From assembly GCF_029961145.1 (NCBI RefSeq), contig NZ_JASBRG010000001.1, forward strand, positions 372,001-436,000: a stretch of DNA of 64,000 bases, in the 5' to 3' direction. This DNA is from Pinibacter soli. Lineage in GTDB: Bacteria; Bacteroidota; Bacteroidia; Chitinophagales; Chitinophagaceae. Positions 2,354 to 63,395 of the stretch are shown here, in pieces; positions within the stretch are counted from its first letter, which is position 1, and every line of letters begins with the position of its first letter. The notes under the pieces are model-generated. The model saw only the letters and a program-made list of their open reading frames with translations, was not told the DNA's origin and did no database searches. Both the position numbers and the translations under genes were made by a program.

Positions 2354-2463
2354 AAGAAAGTAAAAATTAAAAAGTAAAAAGTAAAAAGTCGAGCAGGTCG
2401 ATGTCAATTTTACTGTTTGAGATTAGACATTTTTTGAGTTTTTACTTTTGCCTTTTGACTTTA
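2354..2463. repeat. Intergenic inverted repeat, AAAAAGT words
   Basis: Left arm 2354-2390 is made of repeated AAAAAGT-like words. The right arm 2436-2463 is its imperfect reverse complement (TTTTTACTTTTGCCTTTTGA). The element fills the gap between two minus-strand genes. Confidence 0.6.
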
Positions 2464-3999
2464 TCTAATAAATCTTTTCTTATGTCCAGCAATTATGCGT
2501 TCAATAACTTCATTTACTGAATCAGAGGGATTTCTGAATACGGCGAATTTTAATCCATTTTCTCTTGCAAGAGGCATACTCAGGGAATCGACGACAGTAT
2601 AAGTAGCGAATTGTCTGTAAGCGGTTTCTGAGCTATCAGGCATGTTGTGCCCAATAAGAATGATTGCTCTCACTTTATATACATCCGGCATCCAGAGTAA
2701 AAAAGTAGCGTTGTCGCTATACACTTCCGGCAAGTGGTATTCGCGGCCATAGTAGTTGATAGCGCCGGCAACACCATACGATCTGCAATAGATCAACGTG
2801 TGAATTCGAATGGAATCATGCAGTCCATAATAAACATCTGCAGTTTTCAATGCTATCTCCTTCCAACCCATCATGTCGGCAAAGTCCTGAGGCAAGGGAT
2901 GTTTTTTTTGATCTTCCCAGGTTAACGCTCCTGTATTTGCCACGCCAGATTTCTCATAATACTTATGCAATGTTTCCGGCTTTGCTACCGGAAGCGCTAC
3001 AGGCATAGCGTACGCGCCCAATGTCAGACCAAAGATCAACATGGCATAACGTGTCCACTTCAACCTTCCGGTTGTTACTGCTTCTAAATGATAGGCGCCG
3101 AAGGCAAACAAGATAGGATAAGCACCGAGTGCGTAATAGTCTTTGCCATGCATCACTAATAGAAAAAGTATGATGAGTATATACGCCCAACCAAATGCAC
3201 GATAGAGTTTTCCTCTTTCTGCAAACACCAAAAAGAACAAGCCCGCGATCCACACAAAAATCATTGGCAGGTTCATAAATATTTGCCCTGCAATAAATGA
3301 AACGGGACTAACATATTGCAACTGGTATTCCTGCAATTCATGCATGTGAAAAAACACCGGAAAGCGATGATTGTATTGCCATACAAGATTGGGAAGAAAA
3401 GTTAGAAAGGCAATCGCACCAGCATAATACAAGTGCTTATTGAGAAATATTTTTCTATGCCTTGTAATGAGTAACGAAACCAATATACTCGTTGTGTAAA
3501 ACGCTACTGTGTATTTGCTAAGCAATCCCAAGCCCACAGCAACCCCAAAGAGATATAACCATTTGTTCTGCAAAGTTTGAATGTAACGCACAAGGCTAAA
3601 GCCTATCAGCGTCCAAAAAAATATTTCAATGCAATTGGGTTGAAATAAAAAGAACACCCGCACATAACCGTCAATCAAAAACGGCAACCAGCCAAGTATC
3701 AACGCAAACGCTCTTCCGCCCAATGACAGAATAATTCTTCCTACTAATAAAAATGTAAGCGAGCCAAAAAGTGATGGCCAGAATTTTATCCAGAACATAC
3801 TACCTCCAAACAAATTGGTGAGCCATGCAAACACCGACAACATCGGCGGCACTTCCATGTATCCCCACGCCATGTGACTTCCTTCAGATAAATAAAGGAA
3901 TTCATCTCTGTGCGGTTGGTAAATACTATTCTGTAAAAAATAAGGAATGATGAGGCGAAGCAGAGCGAGTAAGTATAACAGCCTGGTGTACTGTTTCAT
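2461..3999 (-). CDS. GT39-type (ArnT/PMT-like) membrane glycosyltransferase
   Basis: A protein of 512 residues with many hydrophobic helices. Near the N-terminus HRDEFLYLSEGSHMAWGYME and VPPMLSVFAWL form the first periplasmic loop of the GT-C PMT_2 family, with the acidic residue pair used in catalysis. About ten membrane spans fill residues 1-330 and a soluble domain of about 170 residues follows. Such enzymes move a sugar from a polyprenyl-phosphate donor to lipid, glycan or protein on the outer face of the inner membrane. No neighbour identifies the acceptor. It runs in the same direction as the B12-binding gene but a repeat element separates them. Confidence 0.8.
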   Translation of the reverse strand: MKQYTRLLYLLALLRLIIPYFLQNSIYQPHRDEFLYLSEGSHMAWGYMEVPPMLSVFAWLTNLFGGSMFWIKFWPSLFGSLTFLLVGRIILSLGGRAFALILGWLPFLIDGYVRVFFLFQPNCIEIFFWTLIGFSLVRYIQTLQNKWLYLFGVAVGLGLLSKYTVAFYTTSILVSLLITRHRKIFLNKHLYYAGAIAFLTFLPNLVWQYNHRFPVFFHMHELQEYQLQYVSPVSFIAGQIFMNLPMIFVWIAGLFFLVFAERGKLYRAFGWAYILIILFLLVMHGKDYYALGAYPILFAFGAYHLEAVTTGRLKWTRYAMLIFGLTLGAYAMPVALPVAKPETLHKYYEKSGVANTGALTWEDQKKHPLPQDFADMMGWKEIALKTADVYYGLHDSIRIHTLIYCRSYGVAGAINYYGREYHLPEVYSDNATFLLWMPDVYKVRAIILIGHNMPDSSETAYRQFATYTVVDSLSMPLARENGLKFAVFRNPSDSVNEVIERIIAGHKKRFIR

Positions 4000-4028
4000 G
4001 TAAGGTTGTTTGAAACAAGATAGAAAAC

Positions 4029-4206
4029 GGAACGCAGATTTTCATGATTTGAGGGATTAAAATACAGAACCCAGATTTTCATGATTCTCATGATTTACTA
4101 AGATTTTTAATAAAAAAATGCTGGCTGTTATGGATAGAACCAAGACAACCAGCATTCCTATATTTCACTCATAAAAAATCATAACAATCATGAAAATCTG
4201 CGTTCC
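4029..4206. repeat. Intergenic inverted repeat with perfect 21-bp outer arms (ATCATGAAAATCTGCGTT word)
   Basis: Bases 4029-4049 and 4186-4206 are exact reverse complements over 21 bp. A second, degenerate copy of the left arm follows at about 4072-4093. The gltX terminator lies inside. The 19-nt core of the right arm recurs exactly at 43737-43755. Confidence 0.8.
4113..4157 (-). terminator. Terminator of gltX
   Basis: On the minus strand AATGCTGGTTGTC pairs with ACAGCCAGCATT around a loop of about 14 bases and is followed by TTTTTTT. It lies about 60 bases after the gltX stop. Confidence 0.8.
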
Positions 4207-4212
4207 TTCTCT

Positions 4213-5739
4213 CTAAGCGAGCAACGCGATTGTATGCTTGATCCTCGCGATCGTTTCATCTTTCCCGATGATCGCTGCGATGTCGAATACGCCGGGACCG
4301 AATTTCCCGCCTACGAGCATTACACGCAAAGGCATCATGAGTTCGCCGGGTTTCATTTGATTGGCGGCTACTATTTCTTTAAATTCTTTTTCAAGATCAT
4401 CGTGTTGCCATGTTGGAAGCAATTCATATCCACGAATCAATTCTGCAAAAAATTGTTGTTTCTTTTCATCCCACTTTGGCTCGATGGCAGCGGTGTCAAT
4501 TTCTTTTGGAGATTGGAAGAAGAAAGATGCCTGCGGTACAAAGTCGTTTAACAATGTGCAGCGATCTTTTACCAACTCTAACACTTTCGCAAACTGATCA
4601 TCATTTGTAATGGCGATGTTATTGTCTGCAAATATTTTCATTACCTGATCTTTATATTCTGCAACCGGTAATTTCTTAATCCACTCATGGTTGAACCATT
4701 TTGCTTTTTCAAAATCAAAAATGGCTCCGCTGTGGCTTACGCGGCTGATATCAAATCGCTGGATTAATTCTTCCATAGAGAAAACTTCCTGCTCTGTTCC
4801 GTCGTTCCAACCCAGCATTGCCAGCAGGTTGACAAAGGCTTGCGATAAAAATCCTCTTTCGTAAAAACCTTCTGTCAACTCTTGTGATTTCGGATCTGTC
4901 CAGTTCATGGCAAAGATCGGAAAGCCATATTTGTTACCATGACGCTTGCTCAGTTTGGAACTATCAGGTCCTAAGATCAACGGCAAGTGCGCCCATTGCG
5001 GCATGTCATTTTCCCAGCCCAAATATTTCCATAGCAAAATATGAACAGGTGCGCTTGGCAGCCATTCTTCACCGCGGAATGCGTGAGATATTTTCATGGA
5101 GAAATCATCTACTACCACTGCGAGGTGATAAGTAGGCATGCCATCAGCCTTCAGCAAAACTTTATCATCGACAAGGCTGCTGTTGAAGCTTACTTCGCCA
5201 CGAATCATATCGGTGAATTTCACTTCTTCATTCTGCGGCATTTTAATACGTACTACGTGAGGGGCACCTTCTGCAAGCAATTTTTGCGTTTCAGCTTCAC
5301 CCAGCGTTAAAGAGTTTTTCATCTTTTCGCGGATCACATAATTGTATTGTGGCGATGGATTTTCGTCTGTTTTAAAATCTGTGCGCATTTTTTCCAACTC
5401 CTCCGCTGTATCGAATGCGTAGTAAGCATTGCCTTGTTTTATCAACTGCTCTGCATACTGGCGATACATTTCTTTTCTTTCGCTTTGGCGGTATGGCGCA
5501 TATGGGCCGCCGTGTTTCGGGCTTTCATCAGGTGTAAGTCCGCACCACGCGAGGCAATTGAAAATATATTCTTCCGCTCCAGGCACAAAACGTGTCTGGT
5601 CCGTATCTTCTATTCTTAATATAAAATCTCCGCCATTTTGTTTGGCAAATAAATAATTATACAACACTGTGCGAACGCCGCCCAGATGCAAGCCGCCGGT
5701 TGGGCTTGGGGCGAATCTTACTCTTACTTTTTTGCTCAT
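4213..5739 (-). CDS. gltX: Glutamyl-tRNA synthetase
   Basis: A protein of 508 residues that charges tRNA(Glu) with glutamate in the cytoplasm. The N-terminus MSKKVRVRFAPSPTGGLHLG holds the HIGH-class signature (HLGG), and SKLSKRHG near residue 260 is the KMSKS-class loop. IEDTD and the anticodon-binding C-terminal part are also visible. I set the start at ATG 5739; an open extension further upstream (to 5841) is a translation of the TTTGAAAAT repeat and not protein. The gene is single, with its own terminator, and diverges from the EptA-like gene. Confidence 0.97.
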   Translation of the reverse strand: MSKKVRVRFAPSPTGGLHLGGVRTVLYNYLFAKQNGGDFILRIEDTDQTRFVPGAEEYIFNCLAWCGLTPDESPKHGGPYAPYRQSERKEMYRQYAEQLIKQGNAYYAFDTAEELEKMRTDFKTDENPSPQYNYVIREKMKNSLTLGEAETQKLLAEGAPHVVRIKMPQNEEVKFTDMIRGEVSFNSSLVDDKVLLKADGMPTYHLAVVVDDFSMKISHAFRGEEWLPSAPVHILLWKYLGWENDMPQWAHLPLILGPDSSKLSKRHGNKYGFPIFAMNWTDPKSQELTEGFYERGFLSQAFVNLLAMLGWNDGTEQEVFSMEELIQRFDISRVSHSGAIFDFEKAKWFNHEWIKKLPVAEYKDQVMKIFADNNIAITNDDQFAKVLELVKDRCTLLNDFVPQASFFFQSPKEIDTAAIEPKWDEKKQQFFAELIRGYELLPTWQHDDLEKEFKEIVAANQMKPGELMMPLRVMLVGGKFGPGVFDIAAIIGKDETIARIKHTIALLA

Positions 5740-5755
5740 AGGCTGCAAAGTAATG

Positions 5756-5954
5756 TGGAAATTTGAAAATATGGAAATTTGAAAATGAGGGACGATTTGA
5801 AGATTTGAACATACGAGAATTTGAAAATTGGGGAGCCGCAACTTTAAGTACTATAATAAATTGATTTAATTATTTATTCTTTAACATTCAGGATGCCTTT
5901 TCTAAATAAAATCCCCCCGCGCAGAAGGCATTTTCAAATTCTCAAATTTTCAAA
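5756..5954. repeat. Inverted repeat of AAATTTGAAAAT words in a divergent promoter region
   Basis: The left arm 5756-5832 holds several copies of GAAAATTTGAAAAT-like words. The right arm 5929-5954 has CATTTTCAAATTCTCAAATT. The gap lies between the starts of gltX and the EptA-like gene, so no transcript from either gene ends here. Inside, ATGCCTT (5893) and AAGGCAT (5925) form a further hairpin. Confidence 0.6.
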
Positions 5955-5990
5955 GTATATATTTGTAATCCACAAAATGGTTTATCAATA

Positions 5991-9366: not shown

Positions 9367-9368
9367 TA

Positions 9369-9537
9369 ATTTGAAAATGTGGAAATGTGAAAATTTGAAA
9401 ATTCATTCTGTGTAGCGGAATGACTAGTTTTGGAGAACATGAGTATATGATAGTTAATTAATTGCGACCAATTTGTGGAGCGATTATAGTTTCGGCGCGC
9501 CCATTTTCAAATTTTCAAATCCTCAAATTTTCAAATT
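9369..9537. repeat. Intergenic inverted repeat, AAATTTGAAAAT words
   Basis: The left arm 9369-9403 (several TTTGAAAAT words) matches, as reverse complement, the right arm 9502-9537 (ATTTTCAAATTTTCAAATCC and onward). The element separates comM from the ABC transporter gene. Confidence 0.65.
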
Positions 9538-9626
9538 AATCGGAATTTTTGTCACTTTGAGTATCTCGCACGTTGTTTGCTGTTGGAACATCCTTGCCCT
9601 TCTTTTTGTTATAATTTTAAGTTATC

Positions 9627-11440: not shown

Positions 11441-11626
11441 TTTTTGCCACTGAGGCACAGAAAACACAGAGTTTACTAAAATATTATTGAACTGCAGGGG
11501 AAATTTATTTTCCTTGCCTTGGCTTACTACAATTTTCCGTAGTTCGAATGTTTGTCCGCACTTTTTGCGATCAAATCAAACCATGTTTTAACTAACCTCT
11601 GTTTTCCTTTGTGCCTCTGTGGCAAA
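11441..11626. repeat. Intergenic inverted repeat, GCCACTGAGGCACAGA words
   Basis: The left arm 11441-11471 reads GCCACTGAGGCACAGAAAAC and onward; the right arm 11597-11626 is its imperfect reverse complement ending TGTGCCTCTGTGGCAAA. The 345-bp gap between the ABC gene and the lipoprotein gene holds this element and no gene. The same words recur at 38165-38318. Confidence 0.7.
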
Positions 11627-35789: not shown

Positions 35790-35835
35790 AGGTTTGTATT
35801 ATTATATTGAGAGCAAAGAAAAGGAAAATAGGCAA

Positions 35836-36013
35836 GGAATTAGGATTTAGAAATTAGGAATTGGGAATTAGAGGCAGATCGCAAGCTGCAGGCAGCAAAA
35901 CCTTTTGTGCAATCCGTGCCGATTTTTTGCTGCTATCATTAAAAGGCTGCCTCCTAACAACTATCGACCAACAACTAACAACTCCCCTCTAATTTCTAAT
36001 TCCTAATTCCTAA
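35836..36013. repeat. Inverted repeat of AATTAGGAATT words in a divergent gap
   Basis: The left arm 35836-35872 (TTAGAAATTAGGAATTGGGA) and the right arm 35984-36013 (CTAATTTCTAATTCCTAATT) are imperfect reverse complements. The gap separates the starts of the MMPL gene and recO. Right-arm words recur at 45512-45542. Confidence 0.65.
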
Positions 36014-36024
36014 CTTGCTTTCGT

Positions 36025-36765
36025 ATGATCACATTCAAAACCAAAGGGCTTGTTTTAAAAACGGTAAAATATGGGGAAACCAGCGTGATCGTTACCGTGT
36101 TTACAGAGCTTTTTGGTACGCAAACTTACCTGCAAAACGGCGTAAGAACGGGCAACAAAAAGGGACAGGGAAAAGCAAATCTATTTCAGCCTGGCGCCAT
36201 TCTCGACCTTGTCGTTTACCATAATGAGTTAAAAAATATCCAACGCATAAAGGAGTACAAATGGGGCTTTTTGTATCAGCATATTTTCTTTGATGTATAT
36301 AAAAATGCTGTTGTTCTGTTTATTGTGGAGCTATTGCAAAAATGCCTCAAGCTTCCCGAAGCAAATGCTGAGCTGTATTATTTCATCGAAGATGCGATGA
36401 TCCATTTGGATGAAGCGGAAGATCCTGTCGTGGCAAATTATCCGCTCTTTTTCGCGCTGAACCTTGCCAACTTTTTCGGTTTTAAAATCTATGATGATTA
36501 CGAATTGGGAAATAACATTTTGAATTTACAGGAAGGTGTTTTCCAAAAAGAATATCCACTGCATCAATCCTTCATTGAGGGCGATCTTAGTTATACTGTT
36601 TCCCAACTGCTCAAAGTGCAGCAACCTTCGGAACTATCGCAAATAAAGCTTAACAGACAAACCCGCCAATCACTAATGCATTCTTTGGAGCTATTTTACG
36701 CATTGCATATCCCCGAGTTCGGACACATGAGGACGCTGGCTGTGTTGCAGGAAGTGTTGTCATAA
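36025..36765 (+). CDS. recO: DNA repair protein RecO
   Basis: A protein of 246 residues. The N-terminal OB-fold (MITFKTKGLVLKTVKYGETS, VTVFTELFGTQTYLQNGVR) and the helical C-terminal half fit RecO. This protein anneals SSB-coated single strands and loads RecA with RecR. The zinc cysteines found in some RecO proteins are absent, which is common in Bacteroidota. Single gene, convergent with the SDR gene across a repeat element. Confidence 0.92.
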   Translation: MITFKTKGLVLKTVKYGETSVIVTVFTELFGTQTYLQNGVRTGNKKGQGKANLFQPGAILDLVVYHNELKNIQRIKEYKWGFLYQHIFFDVYKNAVVLFIVELLQKCLKLPEANAELYYFIEDAMIHLDEAEDPVVANYPLFFALNLANFFGFKIYDDYELGNNILNLQEGVFQKEYPLHQSFIEGDLSYTVSQLLKVQQPSELSQIKLNRQTRQSLMHSLELFYALHIPEFGHMRTLAVLQEVLS

Positions 36766-36862
36766 TGCCCAACGCATAATGCCTAACGCTAAACGCGGCA
36801 TCTGTGTAGCGATCCACACATTCAGCGATCTGCGTTAAGCGTTAGGCATTGAGCATTTTGCC
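36764..36862. repeat. Inverted repeat of AATGCCTAACGC words between convergent genes
   Basis: The left arm 36764-36798 (AATGCCCAACGCATAATGCC and onward) and the right arm 36832-36862 (GCGTTAGGCATTGAGCATTT) are imperfect reverse complements. The element spans the whole gap from the recO stop to the SDR stop. Confidence 0.7.
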
Positions 36863-37683
36863 TACAAGAATAAATCCGGCATCAACTTATTATCCGTATT
36901 TACTGCATATTTCTTGAAATCTGTAATGCCTTCGGCGGTCAACACTTCTTCGTCAATAAAGAAGTTGCCAGAGCATTCATAAGAAGGTCTTTGCAATATG
37001 TAAAATGCGGCATCTGCCACTATTTCGGGTGTGCGGCTACGTTGTATGAGAAAATCCCCGCCAAGCAAATTTTGTACGGCAGCCGTGGCAATGGTAGTTT
37101 TCGGCCAAAGCGTATTTGCCGCAATACGGTGAGTAGCTAACTCTTCCGCCAGTCCCATGGCGATCATACTCATTCCGTACTTGCTCATCGTATAGGCAAG
37201 GTGTTTTGCAAACCAATGCGGATCAAGATTTAACGGGGGAGATAAATTTAAAATATGCGGATTATTCGCTTTTTTCAGGTAGGGAATGCAGGCCTGGCTC
37301 ATGAAGAATGTGCCGCGAACATTGATGTCGTGCATCAAATCGAATCGTTTGGCTTCCAGCTGCTCTGTGTTGGCCAGGTTTATGGCGCTTGCATTATTAA
37401 TTAATATATCAATACCATTAAAAGTGTCAACGGCTTTTCTTACCGCACTTACAATGTCCTGCTCAAAGCGCACATCCAGCTGAAGCGGCAATACATTACC
37501 CGGCCCTTGTTTATCTATTTCTTCAGCGGCGGTAAAAATAGTTCCTTCCAGTTTGGGATTGGGATCCACGGTTTTAGCGGCAATTACGATGTTGGCTCCT
37601 TCGCTGGCCAGCTTCATTGCAATGGCTTTGCCAATGCCGCGGCTTCCTCCGGTGATAAAGACAGTCTTGTTTAAAAACTTCAT
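36862..37683 (-). CDS. Short-chain dehydrogenase, HSDL2-like
   Basis: A protein of 273 residues with a Rossmann fold. TGGSRGIG (12-19) binds NAD(P) and YTMSK has the catalytic Tyr (near 165) and Lys. ILNLSPPLNLDPHWF, LAYTMSKYGMSMIAMG and ANTLWPKTTIATAAV are nearly diagnostic of the HSDL2 branch (hydroxysteroid dehydrogenase-like 2), whose substrate is uncertain but probably a lipid. It lacks the SCP2 domain of the animal protein. A 25-bp near-palindrome upstream may be a repressor site. Confidence 0.9.
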   Translation of the reverse strand: MKFLNKTVFITGGSRGIGKAIAMKLASEGANIVIAAKTVDPNPKLEGTIFTAAEEIDKQGPGNVLPLQLDVRFEQDIVSAVRKAVDTFNGIDILINNASAINLANTEQLEAKRFDLMHDINVRGTFFMSQACIPYLKKANNPHILNLSPPLNLDPHWFAKHLAYTMSKYGMSMIAMGLAEELATHRIAANTLWPKTTIATAAVQNLLGGDFLIQRSRTPEIVADAAFYILQRPSYECSGNFFIDEEVLTAEGITDFKKYAVNTDNKLMPDLFL

Positions 37684-38374: not shown

Positions 38375-38495
38375 TTATTGATTAATTGATCAACTGAATA
38401 ACTGAGGTTTTGTGATTATTTCTTACCGTAAGTTTTTGTTCATCCGTTATTCCTGTTCCACATCAGTTATTGAATCGATCAATTATTCAATTATT
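38375..38495. repeat. Inverted repeat of ACTGAATAACTGA words
   Basis: The left arm 38375-38407 (ATCAACTGAATAACTGAGG) and the right arm 38461-38495 (CAGTTATTGAATCGATCAAT and onward) are imperfect reverse complements. The element lies between the efflux operon stop and its terminator. The words recur at 45999-46105. Confidence 0.65.
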
Positions 38496-40115: not shown

Positions 40116-40182
40116 AAATCGTGAACGGTGAATCGTGAATGGAAGTTGCCCATTATTCACGATTCACAATTGACGTTTCTCG
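40116..40182. repeat. Inverted repeat of GTGAATCGTGAA words inside the efflux operon
   Basis: The left arm 40116-40142 (CGTGAACGGTGAATCGTGAA) and the right arm 40150-40182 (CCATTATTCACGATTCACAA) pair around a short loop. It fills the 107-bp gap between hlyD and mfs, which must be read through for co-transcription. Confidence 0.65.
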
Positions 40183-41325: not shown

Positions 41326-41353
41326 TTTATGAAGTTGTGAGTTTTAAGTTTTG

Positions 41354-41373
41354 AGACGGATAATTATCCGTCT
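41354..41373. promoter_or_regulatory. Perfect 20-bp palindrome upstream of hlyD, probable TetR operator
   Basis: AGACGGATAATTATCCGTCT lies between tolC and hlyD. Variants at 43384-43403 and 43506-43524 flank the tetR promoter, so this is very likely the binding site of the operon's own regulator. Confidence 0.75.
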
Positions 41374-41386
41374 GTACCGAGTTTTC

Positions 41387-43370: not shown

Positions 43371-43383
43371 TTTTGTGTCGTAG

Positions 43384-43403
43384 AGACGGATAATTATCAG
43401 TCT
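43384..43403. promoter_or_regulatory. Imperfect copy of the efflux operator upstream of tetR
   Basis: AGACGGATAATTATCAGTCT differs in one base from the perfect palindrome at 41354-41373. A further half site (TAATAATCCGTC) follows at 43412-43424. It lies 14 bases from the tetR start codon. Confidence 0.7.
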
Positions 43404-43445
43404 GATAGAATATAATAATCCGTCAATTCTGAAAACAAAATTAAA

Positions 43446-43472
43446 CAAACGTTTGAATTAAACAAACGTTTG
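43446..43472. promoter_or_regulatory. Tandem CAAACGTTTG palindromes upstream of tetR
   Basis: Two copies of CAAACGTTTG at 43446-43455 and 43463-43472, 17 bases centre to centre, set in a repeated TTAAACAAACGTTTGA context. They sit where the tetR promoter should be. Confidence 0.65.
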
Positions 43473-43505
43473 ATCAATTTCTACCATGAATAGTGTATGA
43501 AATAC

Positions 43506-43524
43506 AGACGGATGATAATCGACT
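43506..43524. promoter_or_regulatory. Degenerate efflux operator upstream of tetR
   Basis: AGACGGATGATAATCGACT keeps the left half of the operator and most of the right. It is about 120 bases from the site at 43384. Confidence 0.5.
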
Positions 43525-43539
43525 AAACCGAAAAATTGA

Positions 43540-43755
43540 AAGGCTGCTTTCTCAAGCAGCCTTAACCGTTTTTTACGGTTTTCCACAGGGTTTTGGATTA
43601 ACCCTAAATATTTAGGAGAATGGGACTCAGTTTTTTATGATTGCATGATTTCTTTAGAAAAATCAGAATCCGATAAGGTGCAATGGTACGTTCTACTTGT
43701 TACTTATAGCTATTTGAAAATCATAACAATCTTAACAATCATGAAAATCTGCGTT
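43540..43755. repeat. Hairpins and the dispersed ATCATGAAAATCTGCGTT word in a divergent gap
   Basis: AAGGCTGCTT / AAGCAGCCTT (43540-43563) and AACCGT / ACGGTT (43564-43580) form two hairpins between divergent genes, where no transcript should end. Bases 43737-43755 repeat exactly 19 nt of the arm at 4186-4206; a loose left partner (TTATGATTGCATGATTTC) is at about 43635. Confidence 0.6.
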
Positions 43756-43905
43756 ATGTCTTATTAGAATGTAAAACTAAAATTGATTTAGACTGCCTCA
43801 AAAGCACATTCACCCGATTTTAAATAGTGGTAAAAATGCCAGGGTTATGCATCTTTGCACCTGCTAGCCTGCTTTTATACGTTCACATATTCGCGTAAAA
43901 ACACA

Positions 43906-44940: not shown

Positions 44941-44941
44941 A

Positions 44942-45020
44942 AATTAAGAAAATCAAAAGTCAAAAAGGTTGCCCATAGGAAACAGTCCTTTTGACTTTTT
45001 ACTTTCGAATTTTGACTTTC
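44942..45020. repeat. Inverted repeat of CAAAAGTCAAAAAG words
   Basis: The left arm 44942-44969 and the right arm 44987-45020 (CCTTTTGACTTTTTACTTTC) are imperfect reverse complements. A TACCTTCG box (45026-45033) ahead of gldC follows directly. Confidence 0.65.
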
Positions 45021-45051: not shown

Positions 45052-45402
45052 ATGGATCAATCAACCATTACAATTGATGTAATATTAGACCGTGATAAAA
45101 CGCCCGAAAACATTCTGTGGAGCGCATCCAACAGCACGGCAGACGGCAAACAAAAAGCAAAAGCTGTGATGCTTTCTCTGTGGGACGGAACTGACAAAAC
45201 CGCTCTTCGTATAGATTTGTGGACCAAGGAAATGATGGTCGACGAAATGGCCGATTTCTTCTATCAAACACTGATGACCATGGCCGACACCTACAACCGC
45301 GCCACAAAGCATACAGAACTGGTGAACGATATGAAAAACTTCGCAAAGGACTTCTACAACAAGTTCCGCGAAGAACAAATGAAAGAAAACAGCTTGAAAT
45401 AA
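45052..45402 (+). CDS. gldC: Gliding motility protein GldC
   Basis: A protein of 116 residues. STITIDVILDRDKTPENILW, then the segment KAKAVMLSLWDGTDKTALRI and the following DLWTKEMMVDEMADFFYQTL, fit GldC, a small cytoplasmic protein found in gliding Bacteroidota and non-gliding relatives. Its exact role is not known; gldB, its usual neighbour, is not next to it. With the T9SS cargo at 14969 it supports the presence of a type IX secretion/gliding system in this genome. Confidence 0.88.
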   Translation: MDQSTITIDVILDRDKTPENILWSASNSTADGKQKAKAVMLSLWDGTDKTALRIDLWTKEMMVDEMADFFYQTLMTMADTYNRATKHTELVNDMKNFAKDFYNKFREEQMKENSLK

Positions 45403-45409
45403 TGGAAAA

Positions 45410-45542
45410 TTGAAAGTTTAAAATCGGGCCTAAACCAATACAGCCTTACTTTCAACACTGTCACGCACAAAGCATTTTCAACTTTTAATTTTCAATTTTC
45501 AACTCTCTACCAATTCCTAATTTCTAATTACTAATTCCTAAT
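45410..45542. repeat. Inverted repeat of GAAAATTGAAAGTT words plus an AATTCCTAATTTC arm
   Basis: The left arm 45402-45424 (GGAAAATTGAAAGTTTAAAA) and the right arm 45477-45503 (TTTTCAACTTTTAATTTTCA) are imperfect reverse complements. A second, unpaired arm 45512-45542 uses the words of the element at 35984-36013. Confidence 0.6.
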
Positions 45543-45545: not shown

Positions 45546-45998
45546 ATGAGTCTCGAACAACAAGTAATGGCAGAAATGAAAGATGCCATGAAAGCAAAAG
45601 ATGAAGCATTATTGCGTGGCCTGAGAGCAATCAAAGCAGAAATTATAAAAGCGAAAACAGAACCTGGCGCAAATGGCGAAGTTTCTACTGAAGGCGAATT
45701 GAAACTTTTACAAAAGTTGGTGAAGCAACGTAAAGATTCTCTTGAGATCTTCACGCAGCAAAACCGTGCAGATCTTGCTCAAAAAGAACAAGATGAAATC
45801 ACTGTAATCGAGCGTTTTCTTCCAAAGCAGCTATCTGCAGAAGAACTGAAAGCGGCACTTGAAAAAATTATTGCTGAAACAGGCGCTGCATCTCCTGCAG
45901 ATCTTGGTAAAGTAATGGGCGTTGCCTCTAAACAATTGGCTGGCAAAGCAGACGGTAAAGCAATAAGTGCAACCGTGAAAGAATTGCTCACGAAATAA
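45546..45998 (+). CDS. yqeY: GatB/YqeY domain protein
   Basis: A protein of 150 residues, the usual size of YqeY. MSLEQQVMAEMKDAMKAKDE, IVERFLPKQLS-like residues (VIERFLPKQLSAEELKAAL) and DLGKVMGVASKQLAGKADGK fit the family, which shares its helical domain with the tail of GatB of the tRNA amidotransferase. It may bind tRNA; its function is not settled. Confidence 0.92.
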   Translation: MSLEQQVMAEMKDAMKAKDEALLRGLRAIKAEIIKAKTEPGANGEVSTEGELKLLQKLVKQRKDSLEIFTQQNRADLAQKEQDEITVIERFLPKQLSAEELKAALEKIIAETGAASPADLGKVMGVASKQLAGKADGKAISATVKELLTK

Positions 45999-46105
45999 CG
46001 ACTGAATTACTAACTAACTGAATAACTGAATATCTTATTCTCGATTTTGCTTTACGACAGTCGACCACTCAGTTATTCAGCTAGTCAGTTATTCAATTAT
46101 TATTC
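45999..46105. repeat. Inverted repeat of ACTGAATAACTGAATA words
   Basis: The left arm 45999-46034 (ACTAACTGAATAACTGAATA) and the right arm 46059-46105 (ACTCAGTTATTCAGCTAGTC and onward) are imperfect reverse complements. The right arm stops one base before the cvpA-like start codon, so the element would occupy the 5' leader of that gene. Confidence 0.7.
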
Positions 46106-51153: not shown

Positions 51154-52008
51154 ATGAAACTACTTAGTCTATTTACGGTGAGCCTTCTGCTTTTGATCCA
51201 AACTACTACCCAGGCTCAGATGGAAAGCATTGTTCATGAAGGAGAATTTGGTATTGGCATTGGCGCAGCACATTATTTTGGCGACATTAATACCCGCGCA
51301 AGGATCAACCGTCCAAAACCTGCAGTAACTGCATTTTTCCGTAAACAATTTGGCAATTATATTGCTCTTCGCGTAGGGGCCACTTTTGCACAACTTGGTT
51401 ATTCTGATATTTACAACAAGGACAATGAATACCAGCAACGTAGAAACCTCAGCTTCAATACCAATATTTGGGAGCTTGCGGTTCAGGGCGATTTCAATTT
51501 CTTTAAATATGTTCCCGGCGATCCGTTGTATGCTTTCACTCCTTATGTTACAATAGGTTTAGGCGCATTTAACTACGACCCATATACTTATTTAAAAGGT
51601 CAAAAATATTTCCTGCGTCCGTTGGGCACAGAAGGTCAGGGTTCTCCATTGTATCCTGATAGAAAACAGTACAGCACTATGGCAATGTGTTTGCCAATAG
51701 GTGTAGGTATTAAATATAGCCTTACAGACAAAATAAACTTGGGCCTCGAGATTTTGTATCGTTTTACTACAACAGATTATCTTGATGATGTGAGTAAAAC
51801 ATATGCTCCCGATGCATTTGCTCAAACGCTTCCTGATGGCACCCCTACAGTTTGGTATCAATTGCAGGACAGAAGCTACGAAACAGGCGACCCGATTGGC
51901 ATCAAAGGACGCCAGCGCGGTTATCAAAATCAAAAAGATCAGTATGTAACAGCAATGATCACAGCTTCATTCAACCTTACATCTTACAGATGCCCGTCAG
52001 CTAACTAA
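51154..52008 (+). CDS. DUF6089-family outer-membrane beta-barrel protein
   Basis: A protein of 284 residues. A signal peptide (MKLLSLFTVSLLLLIQTTTQ, cleavage near AQM) precedes beta-strands. HEGEFGIGIGAAHYFGDINT and FTPYVTIGLGAFNYDPYTYL are typical of the DUF6089 family, almost always encoded directly before uppS and bamA. It is probably an eight-strand outer-membrane barrel. A TAGATTTG box at 51027-51034 lies upstream. Confidence 0.88.
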   Translation: MKLLSLFTVSLLLLIQTTTQAQMESIVHEGEFGIGIGAAHYFGDINTRARINRPKPAVTAFFRKQFGNYIALRVGATFAQLGYSDIYNKDNEYQQRRNLSFNTNIWELAVQGDFNFFKYVPGDPLYAFTPYVTIGLGAFNYDPYTYLKGQKYFLRPLGTEGQGSPLYPDRKQYSTMAMCLPIGVGIKYSLTDKINLGLEILYRFTTTDYLDDVSKTYAPDAFAQTLPDGTPTVWYQLQDRSYETGDPIGIKGRQRGYQNQKDQYVTAMITASFNLTSYRCPSAN

Positions 52009-52143
52009 TTAATAATTAACAATTAATAATTAATATGGGCCGCATTCATTTAAGAATGCGGCTCTTCAATTATTGCCCAGACAATAGCATATATTCCTTT
52101 GGGCTGCCACACCTATTAATTATTCTTTATTAATTATTAATTA
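52006..52143. repeat. Inverted repeat of AATTAATAATTAA words with an inner terminator
   Basis: The left arm 52006-52035 (TAATTAATAATTAACAATTA) and the right arm 52114-52143 (TATTAATTATTCTTTATTAA) are imperfect reverse complements. Inside, GCCGCATTC and GAATGCGGC (52039-52062) form a strong hairpin followed by TCTTC. The left arm overlaps the stop codon of the DUF6089 gene. Confidence 0.75.
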
Positions 52144-57851: not shown

Positions 57852-57952
57852 TGGAAAATTGAAAGTTGAAAATTGGATTTTTTTTATAGTAAACTCATTT
57901 CCAATAGTTTAACATCCTTCATTTTCAACTTTCAATTTTCAACTTTCAATTA
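57850..57952. repeat. Inverted repeat of GAAAATTGAAAGTTG words
   Basis: The left arm 57850-57876 (GGAAAATTGAAAGTTGAAAA) and the right arm 57920-57952 are imperfect reverse complements. The left arm begins at the murI stop; the right arm ends ten bases before the rpmH -33 box. Bases 57926-57951 recur exactly at 60658-60683. Confidence 0.75.
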
Positions 57953-58273: not shown

Positions 58274-58302
58274 ATAGCTCCGCTGTTGTGGAGCTATTTT
58301 TG
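58274..58302 (+). terminator. Terminator or attenuator between rpmH and rnpA
   Basis: ATAGCTCC, GCTGTTGT, GGAGCTAT, then TTTTTG. It lies 25 bases after rpmH and ends 16 bases before the rnpA start, so it probably keeps rnpA far below rpmH in level. Confidence 0.8.
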
Positions 58303-58317
58303 TTTAAATCATATTCA

Positions 58318-58713
58318 TTGAACAAAGTACATACATTAGGAAAAACAGAACGGCTTAAAAGCAGAAAACTGATAGATTCACTTTTTCAAAAAGGTAAGTC
58401 TATGAACGTGTTTCCTTTTCGTGTGTACTACTTGTTCACCGAGTTGTCTGCCGATACCCCGGTGCAAGCCGGAGTTAGTGCCAGTAAGAAATATTTCAAG
58501 AGAGCTGTAGATAGAAACAGGATAAAGCGCCTTACCCGCGAGGCTTACAGGTTAAGAAAAATTCCTTTGAAGGAAATTCTTGAGGCAAAGAATCTGCAAC
58601 TTGCCGTGTTTTTTATTTACACAGGTAAAGTAATTCCTACCTATACCGAGGTGTGCGAGAAAATGGATATTATCATCACTAAACTTTCGGAACAAATTGT
58701 GCAGCGATCATAA
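58318..58713 (+). CDS. rnpA: Ribonuclease P protein component
   Basis: A protein of 131 residues. I use TTG 58318 (giving [20 protein letters not shown]); an earlier GTG lies inside the terminator hairpin. [16 protein letters not shown] is the RNR signature that contacts the RNA subunit. It helps cut the 5' leader of pre-tRNAs. It overlaps yidD by 17 bases. Confidence 0.9.
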
Positions 58714-58966
58714 CCATATTGAAGAAGTTGAGAAAGTAAGCCTGGTCAAGCGAATATTGATCTCTCCTTTTGTGTTATTGATCAAACTATATCAGTGGAT
58801 AATTTCGCCCATTCTGGGCCCTAAATGCCGCTTCACTCCTACTTGTTCCACTTATGCCTTGCAGGCTTTCAGAAAGTATGGCCCGCTAAAAGGTTTTTGG
58901 CTAGCCTTCAAAAGAATCATTCGCTGCCATCCGTGGGGAGGGCATGGGTATGATCCATTGCCGTAG
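58697..58966 (+). CDS. yidD: Membrane protein insertion efficiency factor YidD
   Basis: A protein of up to 89 residues. [20 protein letters not shown] and [16 protein letters not shown] are the family signature, with the three conserved cysteines. The start is uncertain: TTG 58697 overlaps rnpA, and no ATG or GTG lies between it and the core. It sits at the inner membrane and aids YidC-mediated insertion. yidC, often next in other phyla, is not here. Confidence 0.92.
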
Positions 58967-58971
58967 GCAAT

Positions 58972-59112
58972 GGCAATTAATAATTAATAATTTAAAATTA
59001 ATAGGTGTCACACTGTAAGTTTAGCACAAGCACACCTGTGTGCAAATAAAAATAGAGCGGCATTCAATAACGAACGCCGCTCTATTAATTCTTAATTATT
59101 AATTATTAATTG
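58972..59112. repeat. Inverted repeat of AATTAATAATTAA words with inner bidirectional terminator
   Basis: The left arm 58972-59005 (GGCAATTAATAATTAATAAT) and the right arm 59081-59112 (CTATTAATTCTTAATTATTA) are imperfect reverse complements. The inner stem AGAGCGGC / GCCGCTCT (59054-59083) has T-rich or A-rich flanks on both sides, suiting the convergent yidD and lipoprotein genes. It shares words with 52006-52143. Confidence 0.75.
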
Positions 59113-59116
59113 GTTC

Positions 59117-59725
59117 TTACTGCTTCAGCATCTTCACTGTTCTATCCAACACTTCTCTTGCATCTGGCGCTGTGTAGAATTTATATACCTCAGGAGCTTT
59201 ATCGTTATCAGAGCTGAAAGAACCTGGCAATTGATTGAATGGTCCGAAGATTTGTGCGTCTGTATTTGCACTAACTTTCTGCAATTTGCCCGGTACGATG
59301 AAGAAGTTCTTTTTGGCTTCTGTAACACCCTGACCATTTACCAACTGTTGCAAACTGTCAATTTTCTCCTGTAGCTGAGCCTGTGTGATTTTTGTTTCTC
59401 CAGGACCGCTACCGAAGTTTTTGTAACCGCCCACCAATGTATCTGTTTTCAAATTCAATACATACAAACCCGGAGCATCAACGGAAAAGCTTTGTTTGCC
59501 GGAAGGCGTTTCTACGTTCAATACAACTTTATCGCCTGTATTAAAAGTTACATATTGTTCGTTATGCTGAGTGCCTGGCTCTTGTTTAATGTTTGCCATG
59601 TTCTGTGCATCTACTGTAAGCTTGCCGCTCGACATGATCAATACTTTTTTAGTGTTGCTACCGCCTGAGCAGGATACAAGTGCTACAGAGGCAGCGATTG
59701 TTACCAGTGAAAATAGTTTTTTCAT
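59117..59725 (-). CDS. Putative lipoprotein of unknown function
   Basis: A protein of 202 residues. The signal peptide MKKLFSLVTIAASVALVSCS has the lipobox Cys at 19. The mature part starts with a small beta-domain (VLIMSSGKLTVDAQNMANIK, NTGDKVVLNVETPSGKQSFS) followed by a helical segment (TQAQLQEKIDSLQQLVNGQ) and a mixed end. I do not recognise the family; it looks like a Chitinophagaceae-type lipoprotein. No operon partner. Confidence 0.75.
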   Translation of the reverse strand: MKKLFSLVTIAASVALVSCSGGSNTKKVLIMSSGKLTVDAQNMANIKQEPGTQHNEQYVTFNTGDKVVLNVETPSGKQSFSVDAPGLYVLNLKTDTLVGGYKNFGSGPGETKITQAQLQEKIDSLQQLVNGQGVTEAKKNFFIVPGKLQKVSANTDAQIFGPFNQLPGSFSSDNDKAPEVYKFYTAPDAREVLDRTVKMLKQ

Positions 59726-59764
59726 TTTTGTGTTTTAAATGGTTATCAGGTTACTTCTTCGTGT

Positions 59765-59798
59765 TAAAAAGAATCCCGGAGCTAAAGTTCCGGGATCG
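59765..59798 (-). terminator. Terminator of the superoxide dismutase gene
   Basis: On the minus strand ATCCCGGA, ACTTTAGC, TCCGGGAT is followed by TCTTTTT. It lies about 35 bases past the sod stop. Confidence 0.85.
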
Positions 59799-59828
59799 CA
59801 AATAACAACTTTTTTTTATTACTACTGG

Positions 59829-60437
59829 TTATTTTGTAGCAGCGGCAAAACGCTCAGCTACTTTGTTCCAGTTAACTACGTTCCAGAAAGCTCCAAGATA
59901 TTCAGGACGACGGTTCTGATATTTCAGGTAGTAAGCATGTTCCCATACGTCAACACCCAAAATTGGCGCGCCTTTTACTTCAGCAACATCCATCAAGGGA
60001 TTGTCTTGGTTTGGAGTAGAAGAAACTTCCAGTTTGCCGTCTTTTACCAACAACCATGCCCAGCCGCTACCAAAACGTGTAGCACCCGCAGTATTGAATT
60101 TTTCTTTAAATGCATCGAAAGAACCGAAAGCAGCATTGATAGCATCAGCTAAAGCACCGCTTGGCTGACCACCTGCATTTGGTGCCAGTGATTCCCAGAA
60201 AAAGCTGTGGTTCCAGTGACCACCGCCATTGTTACGAACAGCAGGAGAAATAGTACCTGCAGCAGCAACTAACTCTTCAAGGCTTTTATTTTCGTTTGGA
60301 GTTCCTGTGATTGCTTTATTCAGATTATCTACATATGCCTGGTGGTGTTTACCATGGTGGATTTGCATAGTAAGCTCATCGATGTGAGGCTCCAGGGCAT
60401 TGTGCGCATACGGCAGCGCAGGTAATGTAAACGCCAT
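59829..60437 (-). CDS. Superoxide dismutase, Fe/Mn type
   Basis: A protein of 202 residues without a signal peptide, so cytoplasmic. The metal ligands are visible in [32 protein letters not shown] and [14 protein letters not shown]. It has the usual two-domain length. Whether it prefers iron or manganese cannot be settled by eye. Single gene with a strong terminator. Confidence 0.96.
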
Positions 60438-60508
60438 AATTATAGTTTTTAAAGTTAAATGATTGTTCTAAAATTCGTTGAACGGATAACAAATGTAATG
60501 GTTTTTTT

Positions 60509-60685
60509 GGGAGTTGAAAGTGAAGAGTTGAACGTTGTAAGACATTTGCCACAAACCCTTGAAAGCGGGCCACTGCCGACTGTTTTGTTTAGCAAATCGT
60601 TGTATTAAATTATCTTAAACAAAATTATGTGACCTGCCAACAACAACTCTCAACTCTCAACTTTCAATTTTCAACTTTCAATTCC
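60509..60685. repeat. Inverted repeat of GAGTTGAAAGTGAAGAG words
   Basis: The left arm 60509-60537 and the right arm 60640-60685 are imperfect reverse complements. The right arm contains the 26-nt sequence shared exactly with 57926-57951 and stops four bases before the tadA stop codon. The 250-bp gap holds no gene. Confidence 0.75.
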
Positions 60686-60688
60686 CGC

Positions 60689-61126
60689 CTATCTCCTTGC
60701 CTTAAAAAAACTTTTCATTAATTCCGAGCATTCCTGTTTCATGGTGCCGGTTGTAATCACCGTTTTGGGATGAAAAGGGAAATTGACACCGGTGATGCGC
60801 TTATGTCCATTTTTTTCATCATCGGCTCCCCACACAATGCGCCCCACTTTTGCCCAGTACAATGCACCGGCGCACATAAGGCACGGTTCTACGGTTACGT
60901 ATAAGGTAGCCTCCGGCAAATATTTTGCCCCGATGTAATTGAATGCCGAAGTAAGGGCAATAATCTCGGCGTGCGCAGTAGGATCGTTCAGTTTTTCTAC
61001 CTGATTATATCCTCTTGCTATAATCTTATCATTCATTACCACAATGGCTCCTACGGGCACTTCTCCTTCCTCAAAGGCCTTCTGCGCTTCCCGGTATGCC
61101 ATCTGCATGAAATATTCGTCTGTCAT
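60689..61126 (-). CDS. tadA: tRNA(adenine-34) deaminase TadA-like nucleoside deaminase
   Basis: A protein of 145 residues. HAE (52-54) and PCLMC (81-85) give the zinc ligands and catalytic Glu of the CDA fold. GEVPVGAIVV and GYNQVEKLNDPTAHAE are the typical TadA segments. It would convert A34 to inosine in tRNA(Arg). A guanine deaminase is the main alternative. Divergent from the aldehyde dehydrogenase gene. Confidence 0.88.
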   Translation of the reverse strand: MTDEYFMQMAYREAQKAFEEGEVPVGAIVVMNDKIIARGYNQVEKLNDPTAHAEIIALTSAFNYIGAKYLPEATLYVTVEPCLMCAGALYWAKVGRIVWGADDEKNGHKRITGVNFPFHPKTVITTGTMKQECSELMKSFFKARR

Positions 61127-61167
61127 TAAACGAAATTATTTATTTGCCCTGAATTAGCTGTAAATTG

Positions 61168-61228
61168 ATTTGAAATTTGAGAATGAAAAATGCTGCCTCA
61201 AATTTCAAATTTCAAATCTCAAATTGAG
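61168..61228. repeat. Compact inverted repeat of ATTTGAAATTTGAGA words in a divergent gap
   Basis: The left arm 61168-61190 and the right arm 61198-61228 (CTCAAATTTCAAATTTCAAA) pair around a loop of only seven bases (TGCTGCC). It fills most of the 105 bp between the starts of tadA and the aldehyde dehydrogenase gene. Confidence 0.7.
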
Positions 61229-61231
61229 TAT

Positions 61232-62653
61232 ATGCTTGCAAACGTTCCCGATATTGTTCCTGCTTCTGCGATGCCTTACACCACGTTAACGGGCAATGCA
61301 GAAAGGTTGCGCAGCTATTTCGAGTCCGGTGCAACGAGAAGTTATGAATTCAGAAAGCAACAATTGCAGCGTTTCAAGCAAGCAATCATTGAGCACGAGG
61401 AAGAAATCTTGCAGGCGCTTTTTACTGATCTCAAAAAAAATGCTGCTGAAGCATATGCCACAGAAATCGGACTAACACATGCAGAAATAAACAAGGCGCT
61501 TAAAAATCTGCATAAATGGATGCTTCCTGAAAAAGTAAGCACCAATCTTGTAAATCTTCCATCCAAAAGTTATTTGATTCGCGACCCATTAGGCGTGGTG
61601 TTTATTATTGCTCCGTGGAACTATCCTTTTCAACTTTGCATGCTGCCGATTGCGGGGGCCATTGCTGGTGGAAATTGTGTTGTCGTGAAACCGTCAGAAC
61701 TAGCACCGGCAAGTGCAGCGGTTATCGAAAAGATCATTACAAAAACTTTTCCGAGTGAATACATTTTTGTTGCGCAGGGAGATGGATCCGTTGTAGTTCC
61801 GGAGCTGATGAACACGTTCCGTTTTGACCATATCTTTTATACCGGAAGTGTTCCTGTTGGAAAAAGCGTTTATGAACTTGCTGCGAAAAAACTTGTGCCT
61901 GTTACGCTTGAGCTCGGTGGAAAAAGTCCCTGTATTGTAGAGAGCGATGCTGCGCTAAAAACGGCAGTGAAGAGAATTGCGTTAGGAAAATTTACTAATG
62001 CGGGTCAAACCTGTATTGCCCCAGACTATGTGCTCGTGCATGAGTCTATAAAGGATCAATTCATTCAGTCACTCACGGAAGCAATAAAACAAATGTATGG
62101 CAATGATCCATCTAACAGTAATGACTATGGTAAAATAATTACAAGAAGAAGATTTGATACCCTTGTAAAATATTTATCGCAGGGGAAACTAATTTACGGA
62201 GGAAAGACAGACGCTGAGACGCTTTACATTTCACCAACATTAATAACTGATATAAACCTTGATAGTTCTTTGATGAATGAGGAAATTTTTGGGCCCATCT
62301 TGCCTGTCATTTCTTATTCAACTTTTGAAGAAGCCAGAAAAATTGTTATGCAAAATCCAGATCCGCTGGCATTCTATGTTTTTACCAATTCGAAAAAGAA
62401 AGAACAGCAATGGCTGGGAAGTGTTAGTTTCGGCGGTGGTTGCGTAAACAATACGGCGCTGCATTTTACAAATGACAATTTACCTTTCGGCGGCATTCGT
62501 AATAGTGGCATCGGTCGTTATCATGGCAAATATTCTTTTGAAGCATTTACCCATACAAAGGCAGTTTTAAAAACACCTAACTGGATCGACCCTTCTCTAA
62601 AATATCCGCCGTACGAAGGCAAGCTGAAATGGCTGAAAAAAATATTGAAATAG
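61232..62653 (+). CDS. Aldehyde dehydrogenase, ALDH3-like
   Basis: A protein of 473 residues from ATG 61232; codons upstream are repeat sequence. VFIIAPWNYPFQLCMLPIAG, VTLELGGKSPCIV (catalytic Glu) and GKFTNAGQTCIAPDYVLV (catalytic Cys) are the ALDH motifs. The end GRYHGKYSFEAFTHTKAVLK fits the ALDH3 branch acting on fatty or aromatic aldehydes, often membrane-associated. The last residues are basic. It is followed 52 bases later by the glutathione peroxidase gene, which has its own promoter. Confidence 0.93.
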   Translation: MLANVPDIVPASAMPYTTLTGNAERLRSYFESGATRSYEFRKQQLQRFKQAIIEHEEEILQALFTDLKKNAAEAYATEIGLTHAEINKALKNLHKWMLPEKVSTNLVNLPSKSYLIRDPLGVVFIIAPWNYPFQLCMLPIAGAIAGGNCVVVKPSELAPASAAVIEKIITKTFPSEYIFVAQGDGSVVVPELMNTFRFDHIFYTGSVPVGKSVYELAAKKLVPVTLELGGKSPCIVESDAALKTAVKRIALGKFTNAGQTCIAPDYVLVHESIKDQFIQSLTEAIKQMYGNDPSNSNDYGKIITRRRFDTLVKYLSQGKLIYGGKTDAETLYISPTLITDINLDSSLMNEEIFGPILPVISYSTFEEARKIVMQNPDPLAFYVFTNSKKKEQQWLGSVSFGGGCVNNTALHFTNDNLPFGGIRNSGIGRYHGKYSFEAFTHTKAVLKTPNWIDPSLKYPPYEGKLKWLKKILK

Positions 62654-62658
62654 ACCCG

Positions 62659-62688
62659 TTGCCAAAGCTTTTCTAAGTTTTATTTTTG
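62659..62688 (+). promoter_or_regulatory. Promoter of the glutathione peroxidase gene
   Basis: TTG (62659-62661), a 19-base spacer, TATTTTTG (62681-62688): one of the best promoter matches in the window. The start codon is 18 bases further on. Confidence 0.7.
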
Positions 62689-62705
62689 CATTTTGAATTA
62701 CAACT

Positions 62706-63302
62706 ATGACGTTCAAACAAAAAATACTGAAAGCAGCTTATCCGTTGCTGATGAAGATGACAAACCGATTTGGCGCCAGAAATAAAGCATTGCAAAATAC
62801 AGGGAAGTTGAAATCCATTACATCTATCTACGATTTGTCTTTGCATTTAAATAATGGTCAACGCGTTTCCATGAATAGCTTTAAAGGCAAAAAAATACTC
62901 CTCGTAAATACAGCCAGCAATTGCGGCTATACGGGCCAGTACAGCGAATTACAAACACTACACGAAGTTTATAACAATCAACTCTTGATTATTGGGTTTC
63001 CTGCAAATGATTTTAAAGAACAGGAAAAAGGCAGCGACGAAGAAATTGCCGGCTTTTGCAAAATCAACTACGGCGTTACTTTTCCTCTTGCAGCGAAAAG
63101 CAGTGTAGTAAAAGGCGACGATCAAAATGCCATTTTTAATTGGTTAAGCAACAAGGGAAAAAATGGATGGAACGATCAGCAGCCGTCATGGAACTTCTCA
63201 AAATATCTTGTTGATGAAAAAGGAAATCTGACAAACTATTTTGACCCATCAGTGTCGCCATTGAGTGAGCAAATTGTTAGTGCAGTGAACGCTGCGAAAT
63301 AA
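62706..63302 (+). CDS. Glutathione peroxidase family thiol peroxidase, atypical active site
   Basis: A protein of 198 residues with an N-terminal extension of about 40 residues that looks partly amphipathic. The peroxidatic Cys is at 73 in NTASNCGYTGQY. The usual FPCNQF motif reads FPANDF (98-103), so the catalytic Gln position is Asp and the nearby Cys is Ala. The Trp/Asn pair is present in PSWNFSKYLVDEKGN. It probably reduces lipid or hydrogen peroxides with thioredoxin. It follows an aldehyde dehydrogenase, which suggests handling of lipid oxidation products (inference). Confidence 0.88.
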   Translation: MTFKQKILKAAYPLLMKMTNRFGARNKALQNTGKLKSITSIYDLSLHLNNGQRVSMNSFKGKKILLVNTASNCGYTGQYSELQTLHEVYNNQLLIIGFPANDFKEQEKGSDEEIAGFCKINYGVTFPLAAKSSVVKGDDQNAIFNWLSNKGKNGWNDQQPSWNFSKYLVDEKGNLTNYFDPSVSPLSEQIVSAVNAAK

Positions 63303-63304
63303 AT

Positions 63305-63395
63305 GGTGTACGAAGTACGATCTACGGTGTACGAAATTCGTTATGAAGTAACACTTTAATGACTTTCGTACACTGTACTCCGTACATCGTACATC
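63305..63395. repeat. Inverted repeat of TACGGTGTACGA words
   Basis: The left arm 63305-63340 (GGTGTACGAAGTACGATCTA and onward) and the right arm 63363-63395 (TCGTACACTGTACTCCGTAC and onward) are imperfect reverse complements, each made of GTAC-containing words. TAACTTTG (63405-63412), a likely -7 box of the next gene, follows. Confidence 0.7.

Follow-up and report, generated by a model that had tools for sequence, protein, structure and literature searches.

Families of intergenic hairpins in Pinibacter soli and the S23/IVP genes found between the same arm words

What are the long, imperfect inverted repeats that occupy so many gaps between the protein genes of Pinibacter soli? The question is raised by a stretch of 64,000 nucleotides (the window; G000:C1:372001-436000), in which an earlier note had described hairpins with arms made of short, quasi-tandem words. 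These hairpins probably belong to a superfamily of small mobile elements, as non-autonomous copies that lack a gene; the gene-carrying members encode proteins of PF05635, the S23/IVP family.

Hairpin families in the window and the genome

Inverted repeats were sought without alignment gaps (match +1, mismatch -1.5, score of at least 14, loop of at most 220). The window yielded 18 pairs that did not overlap: 17 intergenic, one mixed and none coding. A looser search gave 29 pairs, and the elements are collected in Table 1. In the gaps of the window, all five dinucleotide shuffles were empty where the real sequence held 17 long imperfect inverted repeats. The gaps of a 400-kb comparison stretch (G000:C11:1-400000) held 123 pairs against 1, 0, 0, 0 and 0; of its 138 pairs in all, three were coding. 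The repeats are thus real, and they are nearly absent from shuffled intergenic DNA, the comparison that the earlier note had proposed as a check. Tandem Repeats Finder independently recovered arm words with periods of 7 and 8, in agreement with the description of the arms as chains of 7-12-base words. Among 126 elements in gaps of at least 100 nt (window plus 400 kb), the median arm was 30 nt, the median loop 73.5 nt and the median arm complementarity 90%, the last value being inflated by the score threshold. The 5' arm was more than 50% purine in 82% of the 126; this purine-richness, also reported earlier, is better read as a fixed polarity of each family, since arm pairs of ten families outside the window stood in canonical order 131 times and in reverse order never. 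By extrapolation, well over a thousand such hairpins are expected in the 5.9-Mb genome. As the earlier note had it, transposases are absent nearby: a scan of 29 distinct proteins, out of about 46 in the window, found no such domain. The window likewise contains no Rfam match and no IVP (PF05635) gene.

Table 1. Hairpin elements of the window (positions counted from its first letter)
Element	Position	Strand	Basis
Hairpin, AGTAAAA/AGTCAAAA words	2357..2462	.	Inverted-repeat search
Hairpin, GAACGCAGATTTTCATGATT words, left arm duplicated	4029..4206	.	Inverted-repeat search
Hairpin, TTTGAAAA words	5762..5954	.	Inverted-repeat search
Hairpin, TTTGAAAA words	9367..9538	.	Inverted-repeat search; ortholog in G001
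Hairpin, CACAGAG words	11443..11626	.	Inverted-repeat search
Composite, AATTAGG outer arms and remnant AACAACT array	35824..36022	.	Orthologs: GTTGTTAG left arm
Hairpin, TAACGC/TAATGC words	36755..36866	.	Inverted-repeat search
Hairpin, ACTGAATA words	38377..38491	.	Inverted-repeat search
Hairpin, GTGAATC words; other words in G002	40117..40178	.	Inverted-repeat search
Hairpin, AGTCAAAA words	44941..45013	.	Inverted-repeat search
Hairpin, TTGAAAG words	45401..45497	.	G001: TTGAGAG in both arms, loop kept
Hairpin, ACTGAATA words	45994..46104	.	Inverted-repeat search
Hairpin, AATTAATA words, internal GCNGCATTC..GAATGCNGC hairpin	52006..52143	.	Inverted-repeat search
Hairpin, TTGAAAG words; TTGAGAG in G001	57854..57951	.	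Inverted-repeat search, comparison with G001
Hairpin, AATTAATA words	58974..59112	.	Full-length paralogs, >30 loci of three genomes
Hairpin, TTGAAAG/TTGAGAG words	60514..60684	.	Inverted-repeat search, tandem repeats
Hairpin, GTACGA words; CACTAAG/CACAGAG in G001 and G002	63307..63393	.	Inverted-repeat search

The words had been taken to be specific to each locus, which proved not to be so: word sets are common to many loci and define families, about 20 sets having been encountered. The 18-base TTTGAAAA word occurs 130 times in the genome, against 0 for its reversed control. Profile models of ten families (those of TTGAAAR and TTGAGAR overlap), searched against 864 kb of the same genome and, for two genomes of its genus (G001 and G002), against 449-474 kb, gave 524 hits, 513 of them intergenic, with full-length copies in all three genomes. 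The AATTAAT element at 58974-59112 is matched over its full length, with 72-78% identity, at upwards of 30 further sites in the three genomes, and this whole-element homology rules out the possibility that loops are unique, non-homologous sequence. Loops of at least 40 nt with another match over half their length numbered 19/116, 9/50 and 14/52 in the three genomes, each loop being compared with the sampled part of the genome it came from. Elements are also nested within the loops of other elements. Intergenic heptamer words are known from the STRRs of cyanobacteria, which in that respect are like the word arms.

Other repeats share the gaps. Short, REP-like GACGGATAATTATCCGTCTGTA-type palindromes, separate from the word elements, occur in the window at 41326-41386 and 43371-43905, with one to several copies per gap, and are commoner in the sister genomes. 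A separate dispersed family consists of CTTGTCATCCCGAGGAACGAGGGATCTG palindromes with partly similar loops (C11 78508, 91248, 166261, 170685, 274389 and 348386). Chitinophagaceae RAYT (PF01797) genes at loci L242, L245, L256, L264, L265 and L058 have long flanking inverted repeats of their own, with hairpins, that are unlike word arms.

PF05635 genes between word arms

The earlier note had connected the class with no gene, a view that is wrong outside the window, where full-size copies carry PF05635 genes. In G000 (the own genome) and G001, AATTAAT arms enclose a gene for a 23S rRNA-intervening-sequence protein (PF05635; TIGR02436, four-helix bundle protein), the closest solved relative of which is the uncharacterised 2rld. 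There are 3, 9 and 6 PF05635 genes in G000, G001 and G002, the gene-carrying copies measuring about 0.47-0.73 kb, and 18/18 have word-arm inverted repeats on both sides that score above all 200 shuffles; at locus L352 the flank-arm score was 25.0 vs 13.0 in shuffles. The words of these arms are those of the short hairpins, namely TTGAAAG, TTGAGAG, TTTGAAAA, AATTAAT, ACTGAATA, AGTCAAAA/AAGTAAAA, TAACGC, AGTTGTT and GTGAATC. Short hairpins and IVP elements can be regarded with high confidence as one class.

A wider sample comprised 60 further loci, 56 of them testable, the family sample sharing one locus (L345) with the 18. Arms scored above all 100 shuffles at 24/28 PF05635 genes of the family and at 15/28 of the phylum, the other 13/28 being without a significant pair; the words differ at almost every locus of both samples. 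Among control small genes of 12 other genomes, 0/71 reached a score of at least 15. The same-genus control gave 23/359 small genes at score 15 in the three genomes, some of them IVP genes and others ordinary genes lying between two hairpins. Seven far-apart pairs of facing arms enclosed an IVP gene in two cases, another small gene in one, ordinary genes in three and no called gene in one. Above the cut-off, PF05635 occurs in 87/118 genomes of the phylum, 45/60 of the family and 0/14 named control genomes. At L015 (O 135017-135638; O is the own genome), TTTGAAAA arms stand around a small non-IVP gene with a frame of 115 aa, perhaps as two neighbouring hairpins.

Arm words track protein clades, and do so even between separate loci of one genome (L288 and L364). 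The closest relatives of TTGAAAG proteins are TTGAGAG proteins and vice versa (60-64% identity, the next at 45% or less), and these two words make up the clearest pair of dialects; AGTCAAAA and AAGTAAAA proteins are 58% identical, and three ACTGAAT proteins, two from different loci of one genome, are 80-94% identical. By word count, 5/6 families are denser in genomes that possess the matching IVP gene, the exception being AGTCAAAA (5/2/9 per Mb in O/A/B, that is G000/G001/G002, with the gene in O and A); the full-length model counts of AATTAAT (31/27/36, gene in O and A) also break the rule. Word similarity correlates weakly with protein identity over 16 genes (Mantel r=0.32, p=0.01), the value for 11 representatives being r=0.17 (p=0.16).

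For five word families, CACTAAG, CGGATT, CATGATT, CACAGAG and CGCAAAG, none of the three genomes has an IVP gene. CGGATT and CATGATT (G002:C1:1655001- and other loci) are composed of long-period words of 9-12 bases. A covariance model of the 99-nt CACTAAG element finds matches, with a patchy distribution, in at least 22/79 family and at least 11/148 phylum genomes, hit counts including both strands of the palindrome. At least 116 stretches from named genomes contain a 17-base word of this element, about 30 chance matches being expected; among the 80 matches listed, 32 lie at a hairpin, including those of Desulfuromonas (two loci) and Kiloniellaceae. A Chlorobiaceae match has its arms in opposite order, a Dehalococcoidia locus has a hairpin of a sister word (CACAAAG), and several other matches outside the Bacteroidota are without a hairpin. 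No match to the CACTAAG element was found on plasmids or phages.

Turnover of dialects between species

The genomes G001 and G002 are syntenic, with BLAST segments mostly 80-90% identical. In orthologous gaps with one element per side, the family is unchanged in 46/69, 39/65 and 31/58 pairs, where random pairing gives about 4-6. Hence 33-47% of paired loci have changed family or dialect at about 86% identity, which bears out the earlier description of a fast-changing class present in relatives. Exact swaps with near-identical flanks occur, as at 250624, and there is one clean presence/absence of an element, at O 71484; most of eight large indels examined alongside the latter are not element insertions.

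Related dialects are replaced in place by new ones. Across the three genomes, TTGAGAR pairs number 2, 247 and 31 per Mb and TTGAAAR pairs 71, 91 and 316. Of the single-element TTGAGAR loci of G001, 6/6 have TTGAAAR words in G002 (Fisher p=1.8e-6); likewise, 5/5 AATTAGR loci of G002 have AATTAAT words in G001 (p=1.1e-5). Both p-values are post hoc because the pairs were chosen after the family-turnover data had been seen. A third pair, ACTGAAT/TAACGC, showed no association (p=0.42). Loops are non-orthologous at 5/6 and 3/4 dialect-changed loci, and orthologous at 3/4, 6/8 and 8/9 unchanged loci; the whole element is therefore mostly replaced. There are exceptions: at window position 45403, GAAA has become GAGA in both arms with the loop kept, at O 115762 one arm has changed in G001 and the other has not, and at 58967 the loop is retained. 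Long TTGAGAG arrays have expanded in one arm.

Origin of the hairpins

Could the hairpins be RNA 3'-end structures, terminators or mRNA-stabilising hairpins held complementary by selection on the transcript? Their placement speaks for this: elements hug stop codons (median distance 10 nt, vs 56.5 nt to the start codon), 45/71 co-directional elements lie within 15 nt of the stop vs 15.5 expected, and density per kb is highest in convergent gaps (29 elements in 46 gaps, with 76 in 151 co-directional and 21 in 52 divergent gaps). The AATTAAT family, moreover, has an internal terminator-like hairpin that covaries, with 21 double-sided changes vs 10.3 when shuffled (0/500 as high). However, sense-strand arm mismatches are G.U in 263 and A.C in 268 cases (p=0.86; 316 co-directional elements), so that neither an RNA-strand bias nor RNA-level selection is visible. 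Neither the GC-rich stem nor the U-tract of intrinsic terminators is present, arms being AT-rich in most families and T after the 3' arm showing no excess (0.35 vs 0.33 on the other strand); the divergent gaps account for 21/126 elements, and arms with conserved loops do not coevolve. Selection on RNA ends is accordingly improbable as a general explanation, and elements may lie after stop codons because free space is found there, between the stop and the next promoter. The earlier note had also supposed that quasi-palindrome correction or hairpin selection holds the arms complementary, and a fuller version of the idea would have slippage make the words and template switching between arms keep the match, a mechanism known from the account in PMC8794818. 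The double GAAA to GAGA change at 45403, the one-arm expansion of TTGAGAG arrays and the closer match of arms to their own partners (23.4) than to other loci of the family (18.7, with calls selected for matching) are as this idea predicts. An initial test of arm coevolution on 185 pairs pointed the same way (23.8 within vs 16.4 across, p=1.8e-25). This signal was unreliable because the calling of elements had itself relied on pairing and 48/185 pairs had changed words, and it was gone in an unbiased test that called elements in a third genome and transferred them to the two under comparison, with loops conserved. At 32 loci, pairing within genomes was then 0.755 and pairing across genomes 0.757 (p=0.94); a second reference gave 0.758 vs 0.753 (26 loci, p=0.21) and a third 0.781 vs 0.767 (24 loci, p=0.05), the last a single borderline result favouring arm correction or selection. 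Maintenance of the arms is therefore unsupported for most loci, and with words common to dispersed loci and one arm changed alone at O 115762, self-correction is decidedly improbable as the source of the class.

Mobilisation of REP/REPIN-like elements by RAYT (Y1) transposases would agree with the three PF01797 genes of the genome, with the lack of target-site duplications that single-strand transposition predicts, and with other families here (GTAGAGACG, CATTGCGAG) that resemble classical REPs. It is barely credible for the word hairpins and was rejected: in a sample of 32 RAYT loci, 28 with a usable frame, eight genes have flanking repeats scoring at least 15.5 and 0/28 are flanked by word arms, word hairpins lying near, not flanking, a few of them (L056, L057, L058, L261). 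It might alternatively be supposed that IVP genes are cargo inserting into pre-existing hairpins, the arms being targets and not element ends; the intervening sequences (IVSs) at rRNA helix tips described in PMC4990558 recall this, and here too the IVP gene sits in the loop between arms. Yet words follow the protein clade even across loci of one genome (L288, L364), and IVSs bear terminal inverted repeats of their own according to the same account (PMC4990558), which leaves the cargo reading very improbable.

If the hairpins are instead gene-less copies of IVP elements, the element ends would be the long inverted arms of a family-specific 7-12-base word, which the IVP protein, a putative relative of Avd, may recognise. 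A trans-acting enzyme (reverse transcriptase or the replication/recombination machinery) would then, together with IVP, copy the element into gaps, preferentially into sites that already have related arms, and the arms would decay independently after insertion. Action of the IVP protein on the arms is slightly favoured by the analysis; copying through a reverse transcriptase is doubtful. The lack of target-site duplication, the replacement at sites with related arms and the conversion of single arms fit a homology-directed copying step. More tentatively still than IVP action on the arms, it is possible that S23/IVP proteins represent a large, previously unrecognised superfamily of transposase-less mobile elements, in which each protein reads its own arm word and elements spread through homology-directed replacement of the Avd-like, retrohoming type; word and protein would change in step, shifting whole genomes from one dialect to another, and the IVSs of 23S rRNA would be members that landed in rRNA genes.

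Comparison with known systems gives partial likenesses. The 23S rRNA IVS with its S23p/IVP gene is likewise a small element of patchy distribution with terminal inverted repeats (18/18 here) and a PF05635 reading frame inside (here in gene-carrying copies only); the present elements differ in being intergenic, dispersed by the hundred and mostly gene-less, with arms of quasi-tandem words, and their short copies lie between protein genes and not in a 23S rRNA helix. In the account of PMC4990558, IVSs are selfish elements with terminal inverted repeats, the reading frame was proposed early on as a mobility factor, and mobility had been suggested before (citing Ralph and McClelland 1993). The elements are short, non-coding, dispersed and bounded by terminal inverted repeats, as MITEs are, and like BrickBuilt of Porphyromonas, as presented in PMC4596501, they are intergenic, occur in Bacteroidota and have tandem repeats inside the inverted repeat. 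Unlike MITEs, they have word arms and dialects, and no target-site duplication was found in ten families (n of 9-54 per family), observed and shuffled values being nearly the same apart from small excesses for TTGAAAR at k4 (3 vs 1.2) and ACTGAAT at k5 (2 vs 0.5). Partners with the same ends are found in the IVP genes, IVP not being a known transposase. REP/REPIN sequences with RAYT, as outlined in PMC3116915 and PMC3733652, are also dispersed extragenic inverted repeats without coding capacity, whereas the word families have long word arms, no GTAG/CGTC tag and no position flanking RAYT genes. TAACTGA heptamer repeats are intergenic words, one of them near ACTGAATA, but the account in PMC4679880 describes direct repeats and one indirect repeat, and in that account there is no paired-arm element or link to IVP. 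A resemblance has been reported between PF05635 and Avd, an accessory protein that diversity-generating retroelements require for retrohoming (PMC10053308); the homology-directed replacement of these retroelements is similar to the turnover seen here. In openly accessible papers no description of the hairpin class or of word arms around IVP genes was found, which does not prove its absence, and papers printing arm words were, among the matches listed, all unrelated.

Broken 23S rRNA genes brought S23/IVP proteins to notice decades ago, and what these proteins do is a long-standing question. Their link to thousands of unexplained intergenic hairpins makes that question testable, namely whether each protein binds and moves its own word. 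The small hairpin repeats with which the gaps between genes are packed point to a large class of mobile DNA that has hardly been recognised. If the proposed relation is true, it would account for a large part of the non-coding DNA that changes so fast in these bacteria, and the elements would be mobile DNA of a new kind, with no recognised transposase.
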